Of a DNA stretch of 64,000 bases, positions 29,576-64,000 are shown piece by piece. Positions within the stretch are counted from its first letter, which is position 1, and each line of letters begins with the position of its first letter. The translations under genes were made by a program, and so were the position numbers. The DNA lies in contig OZ025870.1 in NCBI GenBank assembly GCA_964019415.1, positions 6,313,415-6,377,414 of the forward strand, in the 5' to 3' direction. The DNA is from Ianthella basta (taxonomy: Eukaryota > Porifera > Demospongiae > Verongiida > Ianthellidae). The notes under the pieces are model-generated. The model ran no database searches and was not told where the DNA came from. It saw only the letters and a program-made list of their open reading frames with translations.

Positions 29576-30922
29576 TCAATAGACCAGTATCTCAAGCTGA
29601 TCTACTCCGACACCCTCATTTGTACCTCCGCCTTCACCAAAGCACCACCGCACTTCAATATCATCACTCACTTCCTGGCTCAATGTGTTGGTGAACCATG
29701 GGCCACCACGATCACAACAAGTGCTTCCACTTAAACACCCATGTGAGTCCCACAGTGGGTCATCCAGGTACCACTGGCCATAGCTCCATGATCCAGTGTC
29801 TCCCGATTCGCAGAAGTAGTTCTCTCCCACAAATGAAGGTGCAGCTATCCCAGGATGAGGGGCAGAGCAAGGACAGTTTTTCATTCCACGATCAAAGCTA
29901 CTGTCTTTGGTTATTCCTGCTGCAAATGTCCAAATGTGTTTTCGTGGACTGCCGCTTGTTACTGACAGGCCATCAGCATAATATCCATCAAGAGAGGTCT
30001 GCCTATATGCCATGGTGTTGTAGAATGCATCTGGGGTTCCTAGCTGGTAGCCACGAGCTCTGCCACAGACCTTGGTGTAGGGAAGTGAATGTGTTGGGAA
30101 GGTCAAGGGATTGCAGCCCCTACCTCTCCGTCCACCCCTGCACATACGAGTGGAGCTCACTGTAGTTAAAGTTAGTCCTCGAGGACAAGTTCTGCTGGTG
30201 TTAGTCATATCAATATGGGCAACCCTCATCCATCCTCCAGTGGTGTTGCTGCAATTGATTGCATTCATTTCACAGTATGCTTGCACTGGTCCTGTGGTGG
30301 TGTTGATCCAATAATTCCCAGATGGAGCAGTTGGATCGCATTTATAGATTGCTTTGCACGATGCAGCAGGGCTTGCCTTGCTAGCTTTGATATTTTTACA
30401 CTCAGCATGTGGGTGTGCACTTTGGTCCTTCGGGGGAGTCGATGTACTGTTACATCTCTGCATGCTTAATTGCTCCCTCAGTGAATCCAAAATTTCTTCT
30501 TTCAACTGTTCTCGATCAGCAGTTGTCAGTCTTCCAGGCAATCCAGGTAATCCATCACGCCCATTGCGGCCAGGAGGCCCTGCAATGCCATCTAATCCAT
30601 CACTTCCAGGACGCCCTGGAGCACCATCACTCCCATCACTTCCGGGACGACCTGCGGCACCATCATTTCCATCACGACCAGGTTCTCCATCGCGCCCATC
30701 ATGTCCAGGATCTCCATCGCGTCCATCACGTCCAGGAGTTCCATCACGTCCAGGAATTCCATCACGTCCAGGATGACCGTCTTTGCCATCCCTTCCTGAT
30801 ATGCCAGTGGTACAACACGATGCACTGGTTGAGCAAGTGTCAGTGGCAACTGATGCAAGGCATAAGACAGTGAAGCAAGAAAGAGCTACTAGGAGCTTGA
30901 TGGTGAAGGGAGTTGTTGTCAT
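29576..30922 (-). CDS. Secreted collagen-stalk protein with fibrinogen-like C-terminal region
   Basis: Single-exon frame of 448 residues. An N-terminal signal peptide (hydrophobic run LLVALSCFTVLCLASV) precedes paired cysteines, then about 31 Gly-X-Y triplets (residues about 41-132) rich in GRD and GxP. A short amphipathic segment (REQLKEEILDSLREQL) could align the trimer. From about residue 190 the sequence starts like a fibrinogen-related domain (CKAIYKC, SGNYWIN, VQAYCEMN). It continues into a Cys-rich region with FVGENYFCESG, DPLWDSHGC, CCDRGGPWF and DIEVRWC rather than the classical fibrinogen C-terminus; I believe related regions occur in cnidarian and sponge proteins. Likely a secreted trimeric matrix or recognition protein. 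The ATG is chosen because the signal peptide begins there. A TIR element starts 133 bp upstream. Confidence 0.85.
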   Translation of the reverse strand: MTTTPFTIKLLVALSCFTVLCLASVATDTCSTSASCCTTGISGRDGKDGHPGRDGIPGRDGTPGRDGRDGDPGHDGRDGEPGRDGNDGAAGRPGSDGSDGAPGRPGSDGLDGIAGPPGRNGRDGLPGLPGRLTTADREQLKEEILDSLREQLSMQRCNSTSTPPKDQSAHPHAECKNIKASKASPAASCKAIYKCDPTAPSGNYWINTTTGPVQAYCEMNAINCSNTTGGWMRVAHIDMTNTSRTCPRGLTLTTVSSTRMCRGGRRGRGCNPLTFPTHSLPYTKVCGRARGYQLGTPDAFYNTMAYRQTSLDGYYADGLSVTSGSPRKHIWTFAAGITKDSSFDRGMKNCPCSAPHPGIAAPSFVGENYFCESGDTGSWSYGQWYLDDPLWDSHGCLSGSTCCDRGGPWFTNTLSQEVSDDIEVRWCFGEGGGTNEGVGVDQLEILVY

Positions 30923-31054
30923 TGTCGAGCTCTTCCGCTTTTACTTATACGATAGCTCTCACTGCTCTTGGTTTCTTCTCTGGTGCTCTTTAACTCTGTG
31001 CTTGCTGTTGGAGTTGGTAAGTAGTGGCAGTGCAGAAGTCTTCCATTCCTTTTA

Positions 31055-57752: not shown

Positions 57753-58336
57753 CTATAGCAGATAGAATAAATATACTAGCTGCAATGATAAGTTTGATCA
57801 CAAAAGATGAAATGTCATGCTCATCACATGGGAGTCATATGTCATGTCACGTCACATGTACTGTTACGCATAGCTAATGTTATGTCATGTCATGTCAACA
57901 ACCTTGCACCAGCCACACTCTGACTTAGTTCTCCCTCCTATCAATTGCTTGTTGAAACATCAAGTGTTTCACTTGTGCTCCACTTGTTCACAAAATTAAT
58001 GTTTCACTTGCGGTGAGTACAAATTAAAGCATTTAGTCAACCTTGCATATACACATTATGCCTCACAAGTACTGGGTTAGGGTTAGGGTAGGGTAGGGTA
58101 GGGACCAGGGCTGTGGTAATGGCAATTGGTAATTGTAATTGGAAGTAATTAATTGCACTTTTCTCAGTAATTATAATTTAATTGGAATTGAGATATTTTT
58201 GCTGAAGTAATTGTAATAGTAGTTGATTACCTTCATGTAATTGATACCTAATTACATAATTACACACAATTACATGCCTCCTCCTTTGTCCCCAAGTCCC
58301 CTATACTACATTTGGAGGCTAAAATCCATTGATTAC
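57753..58336. other. GALT upstream intron remainder with simple repeats
   Basis: Contains ATGTC-rich runs (about 57,835-57,895), a short TTAGGG/TAGGG tract (58,075-58,103) and a TAATTG-rich low-complexity stretch (about 58,115-58,275). No GALT exon between 57,753 and the LTR. Confidence 0.6.
58075..58103 (+). repeat. Short telomere-like TTAGGG/TAGGG tract
   Basis: Two to three GGGTTA units followed by GGGTA units. Too short to mean a chromosome end. Confidence 0.7.
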
Positions 58337-58636
58337 TGTGACGTTTCGAGCGTAGTAGGGCGCGTTTCGATCTCGGGGCAAGGACGACAACAGGTCTCAA
58401 CGTCAGAGATTCAATCACAACTGAACCACAGCACTACAAAGATCATTTAATTACAAGCATGCACAGGAAACAGGGCCAAACATCAAAAGATAATACAAAG
58501 CATGCGACTCCATAATACAGCATCAATTATTAACAAACACAAACAAAGCAATACATACGCAGCACATAACTGACACACCAGACACAGCTACAGCATTACA
58601 AGATACAGCATTACACACAAACACAACTTTGTCACA
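58337..58636 (-). repeat. 3' LTR of the Gmr1-like element (300 bp)
   Basis: Read on minus it begins TGTGAC and ends GTCACA, a perfect 6-bp inverted terminal repeat of the TG...CA type, and it is preceded by the polypurine tract. The adjoining host bases (58,332-58,336, ATTAC on plus) are the predicted target duplication. Confidence 0.8.
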
Positions 58637-58642
58637 CCCCTT

Positions 58643-59560
58643 CGCATGTGGGACATGTCAAGTCCGTTTACATAAGGCGAACCCTGAGGTATTCACACCT
58701 TGAAGTGTGAAATTCCTATGTTGCCATGACTACGCTCTCGCTGCATGTGATGTGCGCGTGATTCGAGAGGACTGAGAAATCGAACGTCATATCCGGCGGT
58801 GACAAGGAACAAAATTTAAAAAGACAAGAAGAAGTTTTGGTAAGAGTGAAACAGTGCTGATGTCTTTATCGTTCTCAAACTTTGAAGGGATCGACGTTTC
58901 AAGCCTTTATACAGAGGAATCTCGCACTTCAAACTCGGCGAACGTTGAATGACGTCATGTGCTTGCTTCCGTTTTGTACTCCATATATGGTTTGTCACGA
59001 GAACGTCATGTGATGCGCTCGGCAAAGAGGCTTTCCTGCCATTGCTTTCACAAACCGCCGTTGTCGAAATCGCTGAGACGATTTCTTGGCCAGATAAAGA
59101 TTGAAATGGTTAGCCAAGTGAGTTTTCTAAGTTTTCCATGAGGGATTATGCTTTGCGCCTTTCCTATCTAGAGTTAGGCGACCCGAACTTTCTTGGATAA
59201 AGAAGTAGTCGCTGTTTTCTTGCTATAAGTTCTCAGTAGATTGGTTGATCAACTAATCCCTCATGCAAAAGTTAGATAGTACTGTTGCGCACCCAATGAT
59301 GCTATTCTTTACCCGCTGCGCCCTTCCATTGATTTCGACATCGCCATTTACTGCTATTTCGGTGGCTTCGTAATTGTCACTATAACTCGATTAAAGAAAG
59401 AATTATTAACAACGCTTATACACAGAGTTATAGAAGAGTTCTTTGTCTATACTTTGGTATTTGTCCCGCTCTGATCCAGTTGAGCCTGTAGGAGATATAA
59501 GCAAAAATGCGAAGGGCAAAATCGGCCGCGCATTGTTTACATAGCCATGTCCCACATGCG
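58643..59560. mobile_element. TIR element family B, copy 2 (918 bp), nested in the LTR element
   Basis: Ends CGCATGTGGGACATG/CATGTCCCACATGCG, flanked by TT on each side (58,641-58,642; 59,561-59,562). Same family as 31,055-31,908. It splits the polypurine tract of the LTR element: with one flank copy removed, the minus strand reads AAGGGGGAAGGGG directly before TGTGAC. Non-coding. Confidence 0.85.
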
Positions 59561-62500
59561 TTCCCCCTTAAAATGTCAGATGGGGTGAGGAAAACGTCAA
59601 ATGTCTACGACACACAGGGCCCTCGTGACAGCCCATCTGCGTTTCCATTGTCACACCCTTTCCGGTGCGACATCGTGATTTGGTTGGGCTGCACAACCAG
59701 GGCCCACCGCGTGAGACGCCCATTGGCATTCTTCATTTTCTGGAGCCATGCGAGGGGCTTGTGATCGGTCTGGACCGTGACTGGTTGGCCTTCAAGGTAC
59801 ACATTGAAGTAGGTCAGTGCCCACATGATGGCCAGACATTCTTTCTCAATGACGGAATAGTTCATTTCTCTTGGGAACAGCTTCCTGCTGGTGAATGCTA
59901 CTGGGTGCTCTTCACCCTTCGCATCTTCCTGACTCAACACTGCGCCAAGGCCGTAATCAGATGCATCTGTCTGTAGGAGGAATGGCTTTCCAGGATCAGC
60001 TACCTGCAGCACCGGCTGAGTCATCAAGACTCCTTTGAGGTGGGTAAAGGCCTTCTGACACGGTTGATCAACATTGACCAAGCTAGGCTGACCCTTCTTG
60101 GCCAACTGGGTGAGGGGGCTGCCACCGTTGCAAACCCTGGAATGAACCGTCGATAATACCCTGCGAGCCCAAGAAATGAGCGAACATCCTTCTTGGTCTT
60201 CGGCTCAGGGTAGTTCTGAACTGATCGGACTTTCTCTGGATCTGGTTGCACCTTCCCGCCACCGATCACGTGACCCAGATAACATGTGTGGTCTTGTCTG
60301 AAACGGCACTTTTTCATCTTCACCGTCAGGCCAGCCTGTCGAAGTTGATCAAACACCTCCTGAAGGTGTCGCAGGTGTTCCTGCCAGTTGTGGCTGAACA
60401 CGACAATGTCATCAATGTACACTTGAGCAAACCCCTGACATCCGCACAACACATGGTTCATGGTTCTTTGAAAGGTTGCAGCGGCATTGTGCAGACCGAA
60501 TGGCATCACTTCAAATTCAAACAAGCCGAAGGGGGTTGTGAAAGCTGTCTTCTCTCGCGACTCAGGAGTCAGAGGGATTTGCCAGTACCCTTTGGCAAGG
60601 TCTAAGGTCGACACAACCGAGGCAGTCCCCATGCCCTCAAACACCTCTTCCACTCTTGGCATGGGGTAGGCGTCAAACTTGGCCACCTGGTTCACCTTTC
60701 GGTAATCCACACAAAATCGCACCTCCCCATCTTTCTTGGGGACCAAAACAATCGGTGAAGCCCAAGGGCTGGTTGACGGTTTAATGATGTTCTCGGCCAG
60801 CATCTTGTCCAGTTCTGCCTTCACTGCTGACCTACGAGAATAGGGAACTCGATAAGGTCTCTGGTGGATCGGTGTGGCATCTCCCACGTGGACTTCATGC
60901 TGTATCACGGTTGTACGTCCTGGCTTGTCATTGAAGACTGAAGGATACTGTGAAATCAATGAGAGAAGTTCCTCCCTCTTGGATGCATCGAGATTAGGGC
61001 TGAGCTCTGGGAGGAGATCCGTCCCCATGGGCTTGGAGTCAAAGGAATACAGTTTCTCCTCCAGGTTACTGGCTTCCTGAAGTGGATCTTCCCAATCCTC
61101 CCCTTCTTCGGGTGACTCACCTACATCACTGGCTTCCCATGTCTGTTCTGTCTCACCCTCAACTATGGCCAACAGGGCGGTCTGGGGGTCATTCCACTTC
61201 TTCAGGAGGTTGATGTGAACTATCTTCTTCTCCCTACGTCTCCCCGGGGTCTCTACCTCATAGTCCACATCGTTTAGTCGCCTCAGCACTTGGTAGGGTC
61301 CAGCCCACTCCAATTTGAGTTTGTTGGCCGAACTGGGCAACAGGACTAGCGCCTTGTCCCCAGAGGACAGGGCTCTCTTCTTGGCATGTTGGTCATAGTG
61401 GCTTTTCTGGTGGATTTGAGCTTTCTCAGCAGCTTCTTTCACTACATCAGCCATGTCCTGGAGGCATTCCCGCATCTCCATCATGTGGACAATTGCAGGA
61501 GTCTCCTCCCCTGTCTGTGCTGTCCATGCCTCCTTGAGAACGTCAAGAGGTCCACGCACCCTCCTTCCGAACAGCAGTTCGAATGGGGAGAAGCCAGTTG
61601 ACTCTTGGGGTACTTCTCGGTAGGCGAACAATAAGTATGGCAAATACTCATCCCAGTCCTTCCCCTTCTTGTTCACAAACTTTTTCAGCATCAGCTTGAG
61701 CGTGGCGTTAAACCGTTCCACCAACCCATCCGTTTGGGGGTGGTAGGGGGAAGTACGGATTCTCTTCACTTGCAGTAAATGGTACACTTCCTCCAGGGTG
61801 GCTGACATGAAGTTGGTGCCTTGATCTGTCAGTATCTGCTCTGGGATCCCTAGCCTTGAAAAAATGGACATCAGCTCCTTGGCCACACGTGGCGCTTCTA
61901 CACTTGGAAGGGGCACTGCCTCAGGGTACCGAGTTGCATAATCACAGAAAGTGAGTATAAACCGGTTGCCTCTCCTCGTACGCGGTAAGGGCCCACAATG
62001 TCCATTGCAACTCTCTGAAAGGGTAGTGGTACCAAAGGCATTGGCACCATCTCAGCACGAGCAGGTCGCCGAGGCTGGCTCTTCTGACATACCTCGCAGG
62101 ACTTGCAGTATCTGGCTACCTCCGAAAAGATTCCTGGCCAGTAGTAGCGCTGGAGGATTCGATCCTTGGTCTTTGTGATTCCAAGGTGTCCGGCCATTGG
62201 CACATCATGGGCCAGATGCAACACTACCAGCCGGCACTGTTTGGGTAGTACCAGTTGCTCACAGGCCTTGGCTAGCCCCGCTGACCCTTTTGGCTGCCAG
62301 TGTCTGTACAGGAGTCCCTCCTGTTGGTAAAAGTAAACTCGTTCCTCTGCTGGCCCCTCAATGACCAGGCCACGGGCTTTCTCTAGGGTGGGGTCACTTT
62401 GCTGCCAAGCTCTCAACTCCACTGCAGTGGCTGGCAGCCCTTGTTCACCCCCTTCCTGTACTTTGTCCTCTGTACCTGTCACCTCTGACTCTGACTCTGT

Positions 62501-64000
62501 GGGGGGGGGTGTGACTCAGTGACCTCTGTGGGAACCCCAGGTGCCAATTTCTCACTATCAGCTGTTGTCTCCTCTGGGCTGGCTGACTCATCACTGGGTA
62601 CATCCCCACTCAGCCCTTGGCTGTCCTCAGAGTTGGCAACATCTTGTTCAGCCTTTTTCTTGGCTGACCTGGTAACCACCATCAAACCTCTAGTGGGGCT
62701 TTCCCTATCAACTGGGTCGTACAAATCCCGCCCCAGTAGCACAGCCACTGGTAGTTCTGGTGCTACCACCACCCGGGCCTGCTGCTGCCAAGTCCCCACC
62801 TGTAGTTGTACCACCACTGTGGGGTATGACACTGTGTCACCGTGTACGCACACAACAGGCACCCGATCTGAACCGTTGACCTTTGATGATTCGATGAAGT
62901 CGGCTGCTACCATGGTTCGATCAGACCCTGTATCCACAAGCATCTGTACTGATCTACCATCCAGCCGCCCCCGTCGTAGGTACTTATAACTCTGCTCATT
63001 CCAAGCAACCTCTTGGCAGCTCCCTCCATAAAGGGCTTTAGGTCTGGCAGGTGTGGAGGCCTCCTTCTTGTAGGGGCAGTTGTACATCATATGTCCAAAT
63101 CTGTTGCATTGGAAGCAGCGTTTTTCCCCTCGGTTGGTTTGTCTGGTCACGCCCCTTCTGCTCTCCAGGGCCACTGGGCTCCACCCACCGGGATTCCTGC
63201 TTGTTGGCTCGTGGGGCTGTCCCCAAGGGAGTGGTCTCCTTCGCGCTCCCTTTTCCACCGTCTTCCCTGGCCAGGGCATAGGTGTCTGCCAGTTCAGCAG
63301 CCTCTGTCAACGACTTTGGCTCCTTCTCCTTAAGTGCAATTGCTAAGCCCTCAGGCACCCCTGCAATAAACTGCTCTAGAAGGATCATCTCTTCTACAGA
63401 GATCTCCCTATCCCTCTTCCACTTCGCGAAACGGTCTCTCAGCCGATCTGCCCACTCAGCATAAGATTCGTTGGACTTCTTGCGGTCCTGTCGAAACTGC
63501 TGTCTGTGGGTCTCGGCATTCACTTGGTATCGTCTCAAAATCGCTTGCTTGACTGCTTGGTAGTCGTTGGCGCTCTCTATTCCAAGGTTCGCGTAGGCCG
63601 CCATCGCCTTACCCGTTAGCAAGCCCGCGAGCTGCATTGCCCACACGTCCTCGGGCCAGTCGCGCTGCTTGGCAGTCCGTTCAAACATCTCTAGAAAGTG
63701 TTCGACATCGTCATCGACACTCAACTTCTGCAATGTGGGCTTAGGTAAACTCACCTTGGTCGTATCTTTACCTGCACCCGCCTCCGCCCTAGCGAGGATG
63801 TCAGTCATCTGGTCGCGATGTTTGGCCATCTCCGCCCGCTGTTGTTCGATGATCTCCATCAGGATCTGTCTCTGGGACTCCTGCTGATCTTTCATCAGCC
63901 GCTGCTGGTCCCTGAGAATCTCTACTAGTGTCGTTGCTGACACTCCGCCGTCCGTCTCTTCTCCCGTTACAACTGCGGTCGGCTCCTTTTCTCCCCGCTC

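Follow-up and report, generated by a model that had tools for sequence, protein, structure and literature searches.

A Ty3/gypsy retrotransposon in which the integrase lies ahead of the reverse transcriptase

The question raised by the distal end of G000:C3:6313415-6377414, a stretch of 64,000 nucleotides referred to here as the window, is whether the long terminal repeat (LTR) retrotransposon on its minus strand at 58337-64000 is a Ty3/gypsy element whose integrase (IN) precedes its reverse transcriptase (RT), and what such an order would mean in this host. From its domains and from searches of the 209 Mb genome (96 contigs), we conclude that it is very probably a non-intact, recently inserted copy of a Gmr1-like Ty3/gypsy element, one of about six integrase-first families in the genome of a probable demosponge. 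Read from 64000 towards 58337, Pfam matches and direct motif reading gave the order gag, CCHC knuckle, protease (PR), integrase, RT, RNase H and LTR, exactly as proposed in the initial annotation of the window. The integrase core and the RT share a single open frame (62051..60024, minus strand), and the RT, RNase H and integrase are all of gypsy type (RVT_1, RT_RNaseH, Integrase_H2C2, Integrase_p58_C and GPY). The CX2CX4HX4C, DTG, DD35E, YIDD and GPY motifs in the following list were read directly from the element.

58332..58336, no strand: left copy of the target-site duplication, ATTAC; the right copy, at 67555-67559, is outside the window
58337..58636, minus strand: 3' LTR of 300 bp, TGTGAC...GTCACA on the minus strand, beginning exactly at 58337
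58637..58645, minus strand: purine-rich tract GCGAAGGGG, a putative polypurine tract; short, adjoining the 3' LTR on the inside, its role suggested by position only
59689..59997, minus strand: RNase H domain (RT_RNaseH, 1.5e-41)
60264..60743, minus strand: reverse transcriptase domain (RVT_1, 4e-34; YIDD)
61197..61973, minus strand: integrase core and C-terminal domain, 5' of the RT (rve, 3.2e-08, with DD35E spacing; Integrase_p58_C, 4e-13; GPY)
62069..62245, minus strand: integrase zinc-binding domain (Integrase_H2C2, 2.9e-22)
62725..62970, minus strand: retroviral-type aspartic protease (gag-asp_proteas, 1.5e-10; DTG)
63073..63120, minus strand: CCHC zinc knuckle (CX2CX4HX4C; Pfam zf-CCHC 0.027, below cut-off)
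63263..63514, minus strand: SCAN-type C-terminal domain of the Gag capsid (Pfam, 2.8e-14)
63038..64000, minus strand: window part of the gag open frame, which runs on past the window end

Integrase-first order across the genome and its association with a SCAN-type capsid

A tblastn search with the IN-RT frame returned 85 matches (66 of 1343 candidates scored). In all 30 loci fetched from this search, the window included, the domains ran H2C2, IN, RT, RNase H; because L025, L033 and L039 overlap, as do L028 and L029, these loci represent 27 distinct places, which are spread over many contigs and fall into about six families. A search of the same genome for other copies had been suggested in the initial annotation, where an RT grouping with ordinary gypsy lineages, together with copies in standard order, was to count against the proposal; neither the loci, nor the domain pairing described below, nor the within-genome trees showed that outcome.

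Since an IN-RT query favours integrase-first elements, we also paired domains by Pfam matches only, taking the best 150 of 561 RNase H candidates and the best 150 of 578 H2C2 candidates. Sixty-seven of the 150 scored RNase H matches could be paired with an H2C2 match on the same strand: 46 pairs were in standard order, with H2C2 500-700 nt downstream of RNase H, and 21 were integrase-first, with H2C2 2.2-2.3 kb upstream. As these are best-scoring candidates only, 21 to 46 should not be taken as the genome ratio. All 21 integrase-first pairs were also among the tblastn matches. SCAN matches numbered 41 in the genome (46 of 46 candidates scored), and one lay within 7 kb of 19 of the 21 integrase-first pairs versus none of the 46 standard pairs. 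Ten of the 41 had no listed pol domain nearby, L043, L044 and L063 among them. These three loci and two more, L045 and L053, match the L042 gag-pol frame, a match that is confined to gag in L043 and has approximately 37% identity in L063; on this similarity we take all five to be remnants of elements. When seven SCAN loci were scanned for a simple C2H2 pattern, the single match was in L043, on the other strand from gag. The best RVT_1 loci (L001-L008), which had no match to the domains of the element at E 1e-3, were not used.

Several other gypsy arrangements were observed. Two same-contig pairs of integrase-first elements (C19:810733 and C19:5957920; C23:1765878 and C23:1815525) have IN matches with identical scores, and are either recent copies or duplicated stretches. 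Eight RNase H matches with identical scores and a 993-codon frame lie within approximately 260 kb at C20:3283156-3541175, as in local amplification of one gypsy family, the domain order of which is unclassified. A standard-order gypsy element (PR-RT-RNase H-H2C2; L010:3843-5951) lies approximately 6.4-8.5 kb past the window end.

The capsid domain that accompanies the integrase-first order was absent from the initial annotation. Used alone, the window domain matched ZNF24 (7.5e-4), ZNF42 (8.4e-3), PEG3 (0.23) and Bd3460 (0.62) among PDB entries at E <=1. Ten capsid rows of this genome, several of them near-identical, were combined into a profile, which gave five PDB matches at E <=0.1, all of them SCAN proteins: ZNF24 (1.2e-12), ZNF42 (1e-8), ZNF174 (3e-8), PEG3 (1.1e-7) and ZSCAN10 (0.0054). 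The capsid C-terminal domain of the element is thus homologous in sequence to the SCAN domain of these vertebrate zinc-finger proteins; there it is a module of a host protein, whereas in the element it is part of Gag and is followed by the CCHC knuckle and the protease. Homology between SCAN and a Gmr1-like capsid is reported in the accessible part of PMC4592553, and excerpts of a frog survey describe SCAN in more than 50% of Gmr elements and in Gmr elements only (PMC4131045). In the sections available of a study of mammalian metaviral capsid genes, capsid models missed the human SCAN proteins (PMC11011659), which indicates that SCAN is distant in sequence from other capsids.

Ends of the element, primer site and nested insertion

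The second (5') LTR lies outside the window in two parts (64164-64268 and 67352-67554) and is identical to the 3' LTR at 300 of 300 bp; the 5-bp target duplication ATTAC is present on both sides of the element. The window therefore truncates the element, with the gag start, the primer site and the other LTR all falling within 64000-67554, and searching the window by itself for repeats gave none because the other LTR lies outside it. The 5' LTR is split by an insert of 3083 bp (64269-67351, also outside the window) that has 44-bp inverted ends and an 8-bp duplication CTACAAAG. Its open reading frame (ORF) of 401 amino acids matches the MULE transposase model at 2.9e-4, below the cut-off of the model, and the insert is putatively a MULE-like DNA transposon nested in the LTR, a second feature missing from the initial annotation.

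The primer site, TGGTGGCAGCGGTGGGAT, begins two bases past the 5' LTR and pairs at 17 of 18 bases with the 3' end of the genome's tRNA-Leu(AAG) with CCA added. The tRNA-Leu(AAG) genes are one base off from the complement of the primer site, and the exact tRNA patterns searched for it gave no match. Genome-wide, the 15-nt complement of the primer site occurs 11 times and its reversed control not at all; nine of the 11 occurrences lie on the opposite strand to a SCAN gag, 606-630 nt upstream of it. The remaining two, L092 and L093 (C1:13286120 and C1:13592310), have similar flanks, lack a tRNA gene and have no opposite-strand SCAN match within 1.5 kb; they are perhaps remnants of a related element. 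The marks of an LTR retrotransposon were thus all found, namely two LTRs, a target duplication, a primer site and a purine tract, the last of these short and recognised by position only.

The window copy is not intact: its domains are in different frames, with four frame changes between neighbouring domains (59600-63300). Near copies at C7:8004731, C12:3006644 and C3:3865324 have 97.7-97.8% DNA identity to it over approximately 3950 nt. Because their SCAN and RT matches list equal open-frame lengths (1465, 1543 and 1540 codons, respectively), we read these near copies as carrying one frame from gag to RT; the C7:8004731 copy has a frame change within RNase H. Identical LTRs indicate that the family was recently active and, in combination with broken frames, point either to assembly errors or to a copy that was already broken when it recently inserted.

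Relationships among gypsy elements of this genome

Trees were built from elements of this genome only and drawn with a midpoint root, which served for display alone. Standard order was represented by ten RT rows (nine of ten fetched loci plus L010) and nine IN rows. Stops or frame breaks excluded L015, L027 and L030 from the RT tree, and a short match excluded L077; L015, L019, L027 and L030 were dropped from the IN tree, for which L010 had no row; the joint tree also omits L010 and L019. In the RT tree, a single branch separated the 16 integrase-first rows from the 10 standard ones (26 rows; support 100/100), and the integrase-first rows were likewise grouped in the IN tree (15 of 24, 9 standard; 85/92, 90% of 200 bootstraps) and in the joint tree (15 of 24, 9 standard; 100/99). 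Identity among them descends to 48% in RT and 54% in IN, and the approximately six families are visible in the trees. Standard-order elements of the same genome (for example C6:5171876, C8:4158850 and C13:6045273), in which RT-RNase H comes before H2C2-IN, have at most 50% RT and 42% IN identity to the integrase-first rows. The most distant of them, L075 and L080 (with L010 in the RT tree), lie outside all others under the midpoint root, so that the integrase-first order looks derived.

Scans of viral_contigs covered 5 candidate stretches for the window protein and 15 for alignment A2 and yielded no relative, and a scan of genome_contigs (20 candidate stretches) yielded one, L090, a standard-order gypsy element filed under a bacterial metagenome-assembled genome.

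Host of the element

The sole COX1 match in the genome is on contig C96 and has nine internal TGA codons. The six AGA codons in it are read as Arg under code 4, at positions that we take to be conserved Arg in COX1, which argues against the bilaterian mitochondrial codes. A mitochondrial genome with atp9 and a minimally changed code is also found in some non-animals; an ORF of 454 amino acids within the window (29576-30940, minus strand), whose collagen repeats match at 1.9e-15 and whose fibrillar collagen C-terminal domain is partial and below cut-off, argues for an animal host. The mitochondrial contig carries atp9 (ATP synthase subunit c; C96:4910-5098), a gene which, in the part of PMC2444032 available, is given for the mitochondrial DNA of all 22 demosponges analysed except Amphimedon queenslandica. 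Mitochondrial atp9 and a minimally changed code thus occur together here, the host is a probable demosponge, and the sponge origin guessed from the window has gained support from the mitochondrial DNA.

Comparison with Gmr1 and alternative explanations

The Gmr1 clade of Metaviridae, first described from Atlantic cod (Gadus morhua), has the PR-IN-RT-RNase H order seen in the sponge element (PMC2582038, PMC8220671, in excerpt) and, in passages of PMC4592553 and PMC4131045, a SCAN-like capsid C-terminus as well; its RT, RNase H and integrase are likewise of gypsy type. The two are likened by order and capsid; the host here is a probable sponge, and several copies of the sponge family list one frame length for gag and RT. 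Extracts of PMC2582038, PMC6238403, PMC2774666 and PMC8220671 make clear that the integrase-first order of Gmr1 has long been known. The initial annotation was right to call the order Gmr1-like in a Ty3/gypsy element, as the domains and the further copies attest, but "described from deuterostomes" no longer gives the range of the group. Related elements are described, in the portions available, from hydrothermal shrimps, a spider crab and a prawn (PMC3587641) and from the annelid Lamellibrachia (PMC8220671); GyRex4, Gychoro2, GyMaja1, GyLiva4 and Lamellibrachia LGF3 are Gmr1-related in their authors' trees. These protostome elements, likened to ours by description, have bilaterian hosts, unlike the sponge element. 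An excerpt of PMC8556966 counts Gmr1 among clades found in several phyla, and the annelid analysis of that paper, as excerpted, did not itself recover the clade. Searches of the open-licence literature listed no sponge among the reported hosts of Gmr1, a scope that leaves out Repbase and GyDB and so does not show absence from print; the sponge mentions in the accessible text of PMC6238403 and PMC8556966 concern BEL/Pao.

We give roughly even weight to the proposal that Gmr1-like elements, with integrase-first pol and a SCAN-type capsid, go back to the last common ancestor of vertebrates and sponges and were passed down by inheritance from it, in which case the capsid fold behind vertebrate SCAN would date to the first animals. 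Horizontal transfer of a Gmr1-like element into the sponge, which is compatible with the Gmr1-like identity and replaces early-animal inheritance, appears unlikely. LTR elements are able to cross species, and the identical LTRs of a recently active family fit such a history; the presence in one genome of about six families, with RT identity as low as 48%, speaks instead for long residence, or would call for many transfers.

It is still less probable that the integrase came to precede the RT independently, in a gypsy lineage of sponges that only resembles Gmr1. The RT tree, under its midpoint root, does set the integrase-first group among standard elements (90/90 with L072, L073 and L076), and no outside Gmr1 is included in the trees. 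However, the IN and joint trees place the seven nearer standard elements in a group of their own (95/93 and 89/81, respectively) beside the integrase-first group, so the nesting is not firm, and the SCAN-type capsid, a second reported mark of Gmr1, accompanies 19 of the 21 integrase-first pairs and none of the 46 standard ones, which makes an independent rearrangement the less likely account. Local rearrangement or assembly error of a single copy, to which the frame changes and nested insertion of the window copy might have pointed, is refuted by the other integrase-first copies on many contigs and has almost no probability. Membership of Ty1/copia, or capture of a copia integrase by a gypsy element, would match the domain order and is rejected with similar assurance on domain types, as the matches are to RVT_1, RT_RNaseH, H2C2, the p58 C-terminus and GPY, the Pfam listing of the element at E <=0.1 has no copia model (neither RVT_2 nor gag_pre-integrs, which we take to be copia's models), and the IN aligns with nine standard-order integrases of the same genome at 29-41% identity.

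Several observations weigh against the identification as a recently inserted Gmr1-like copy. The frames of the window copy are broken despite its identical LTRs; the pairing draws on the best-scoring RNase H and H2C2 candidates, of which 83 of the 150 RNase H matches had no H2C2 partner and are unclassified (three of the 83 with SCAN); two of the 21 integrase-first pairs had no SCAN match; the exact primer site accompanies only nine of the 41 SCAN matches; and the IN tree alone supports the integrase-first group at the 85/92 given above. As the trees contain no Gmr1 sequence, shared descent with Gmr1 would rest on two characters, order and SCAN capsid, rather than on a phylogeny.

Under the Gmr1-like identification, the RNA of the element would be translated as one Gag-Pol polyprotein from which PR frees IN ahead of RT-RNase H, capsids would assemble via the SCAN-like domain, synthesis of complementary DNA would be primed by tRNA-Leu, and IN would insert the product with a 5-bp stagger. 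The pol order may have arisen once, before the integrase-first families split, and may be shared by descent with the vertebrate Gmr1 elements. None of this changes the mechanism of retrotransposition. The order and the SCAN-type capsid go together in a sponge genome, and an integrase-first gypsy group reported from bilaterians is extended to a non-bilaterian animal; with sponge sequences, the age of the group, its single origin and the source of vertebrate SCAN become testable. The element seems not to be a new kind; rather, a group already known appears to reach into a very old lineage of animals.

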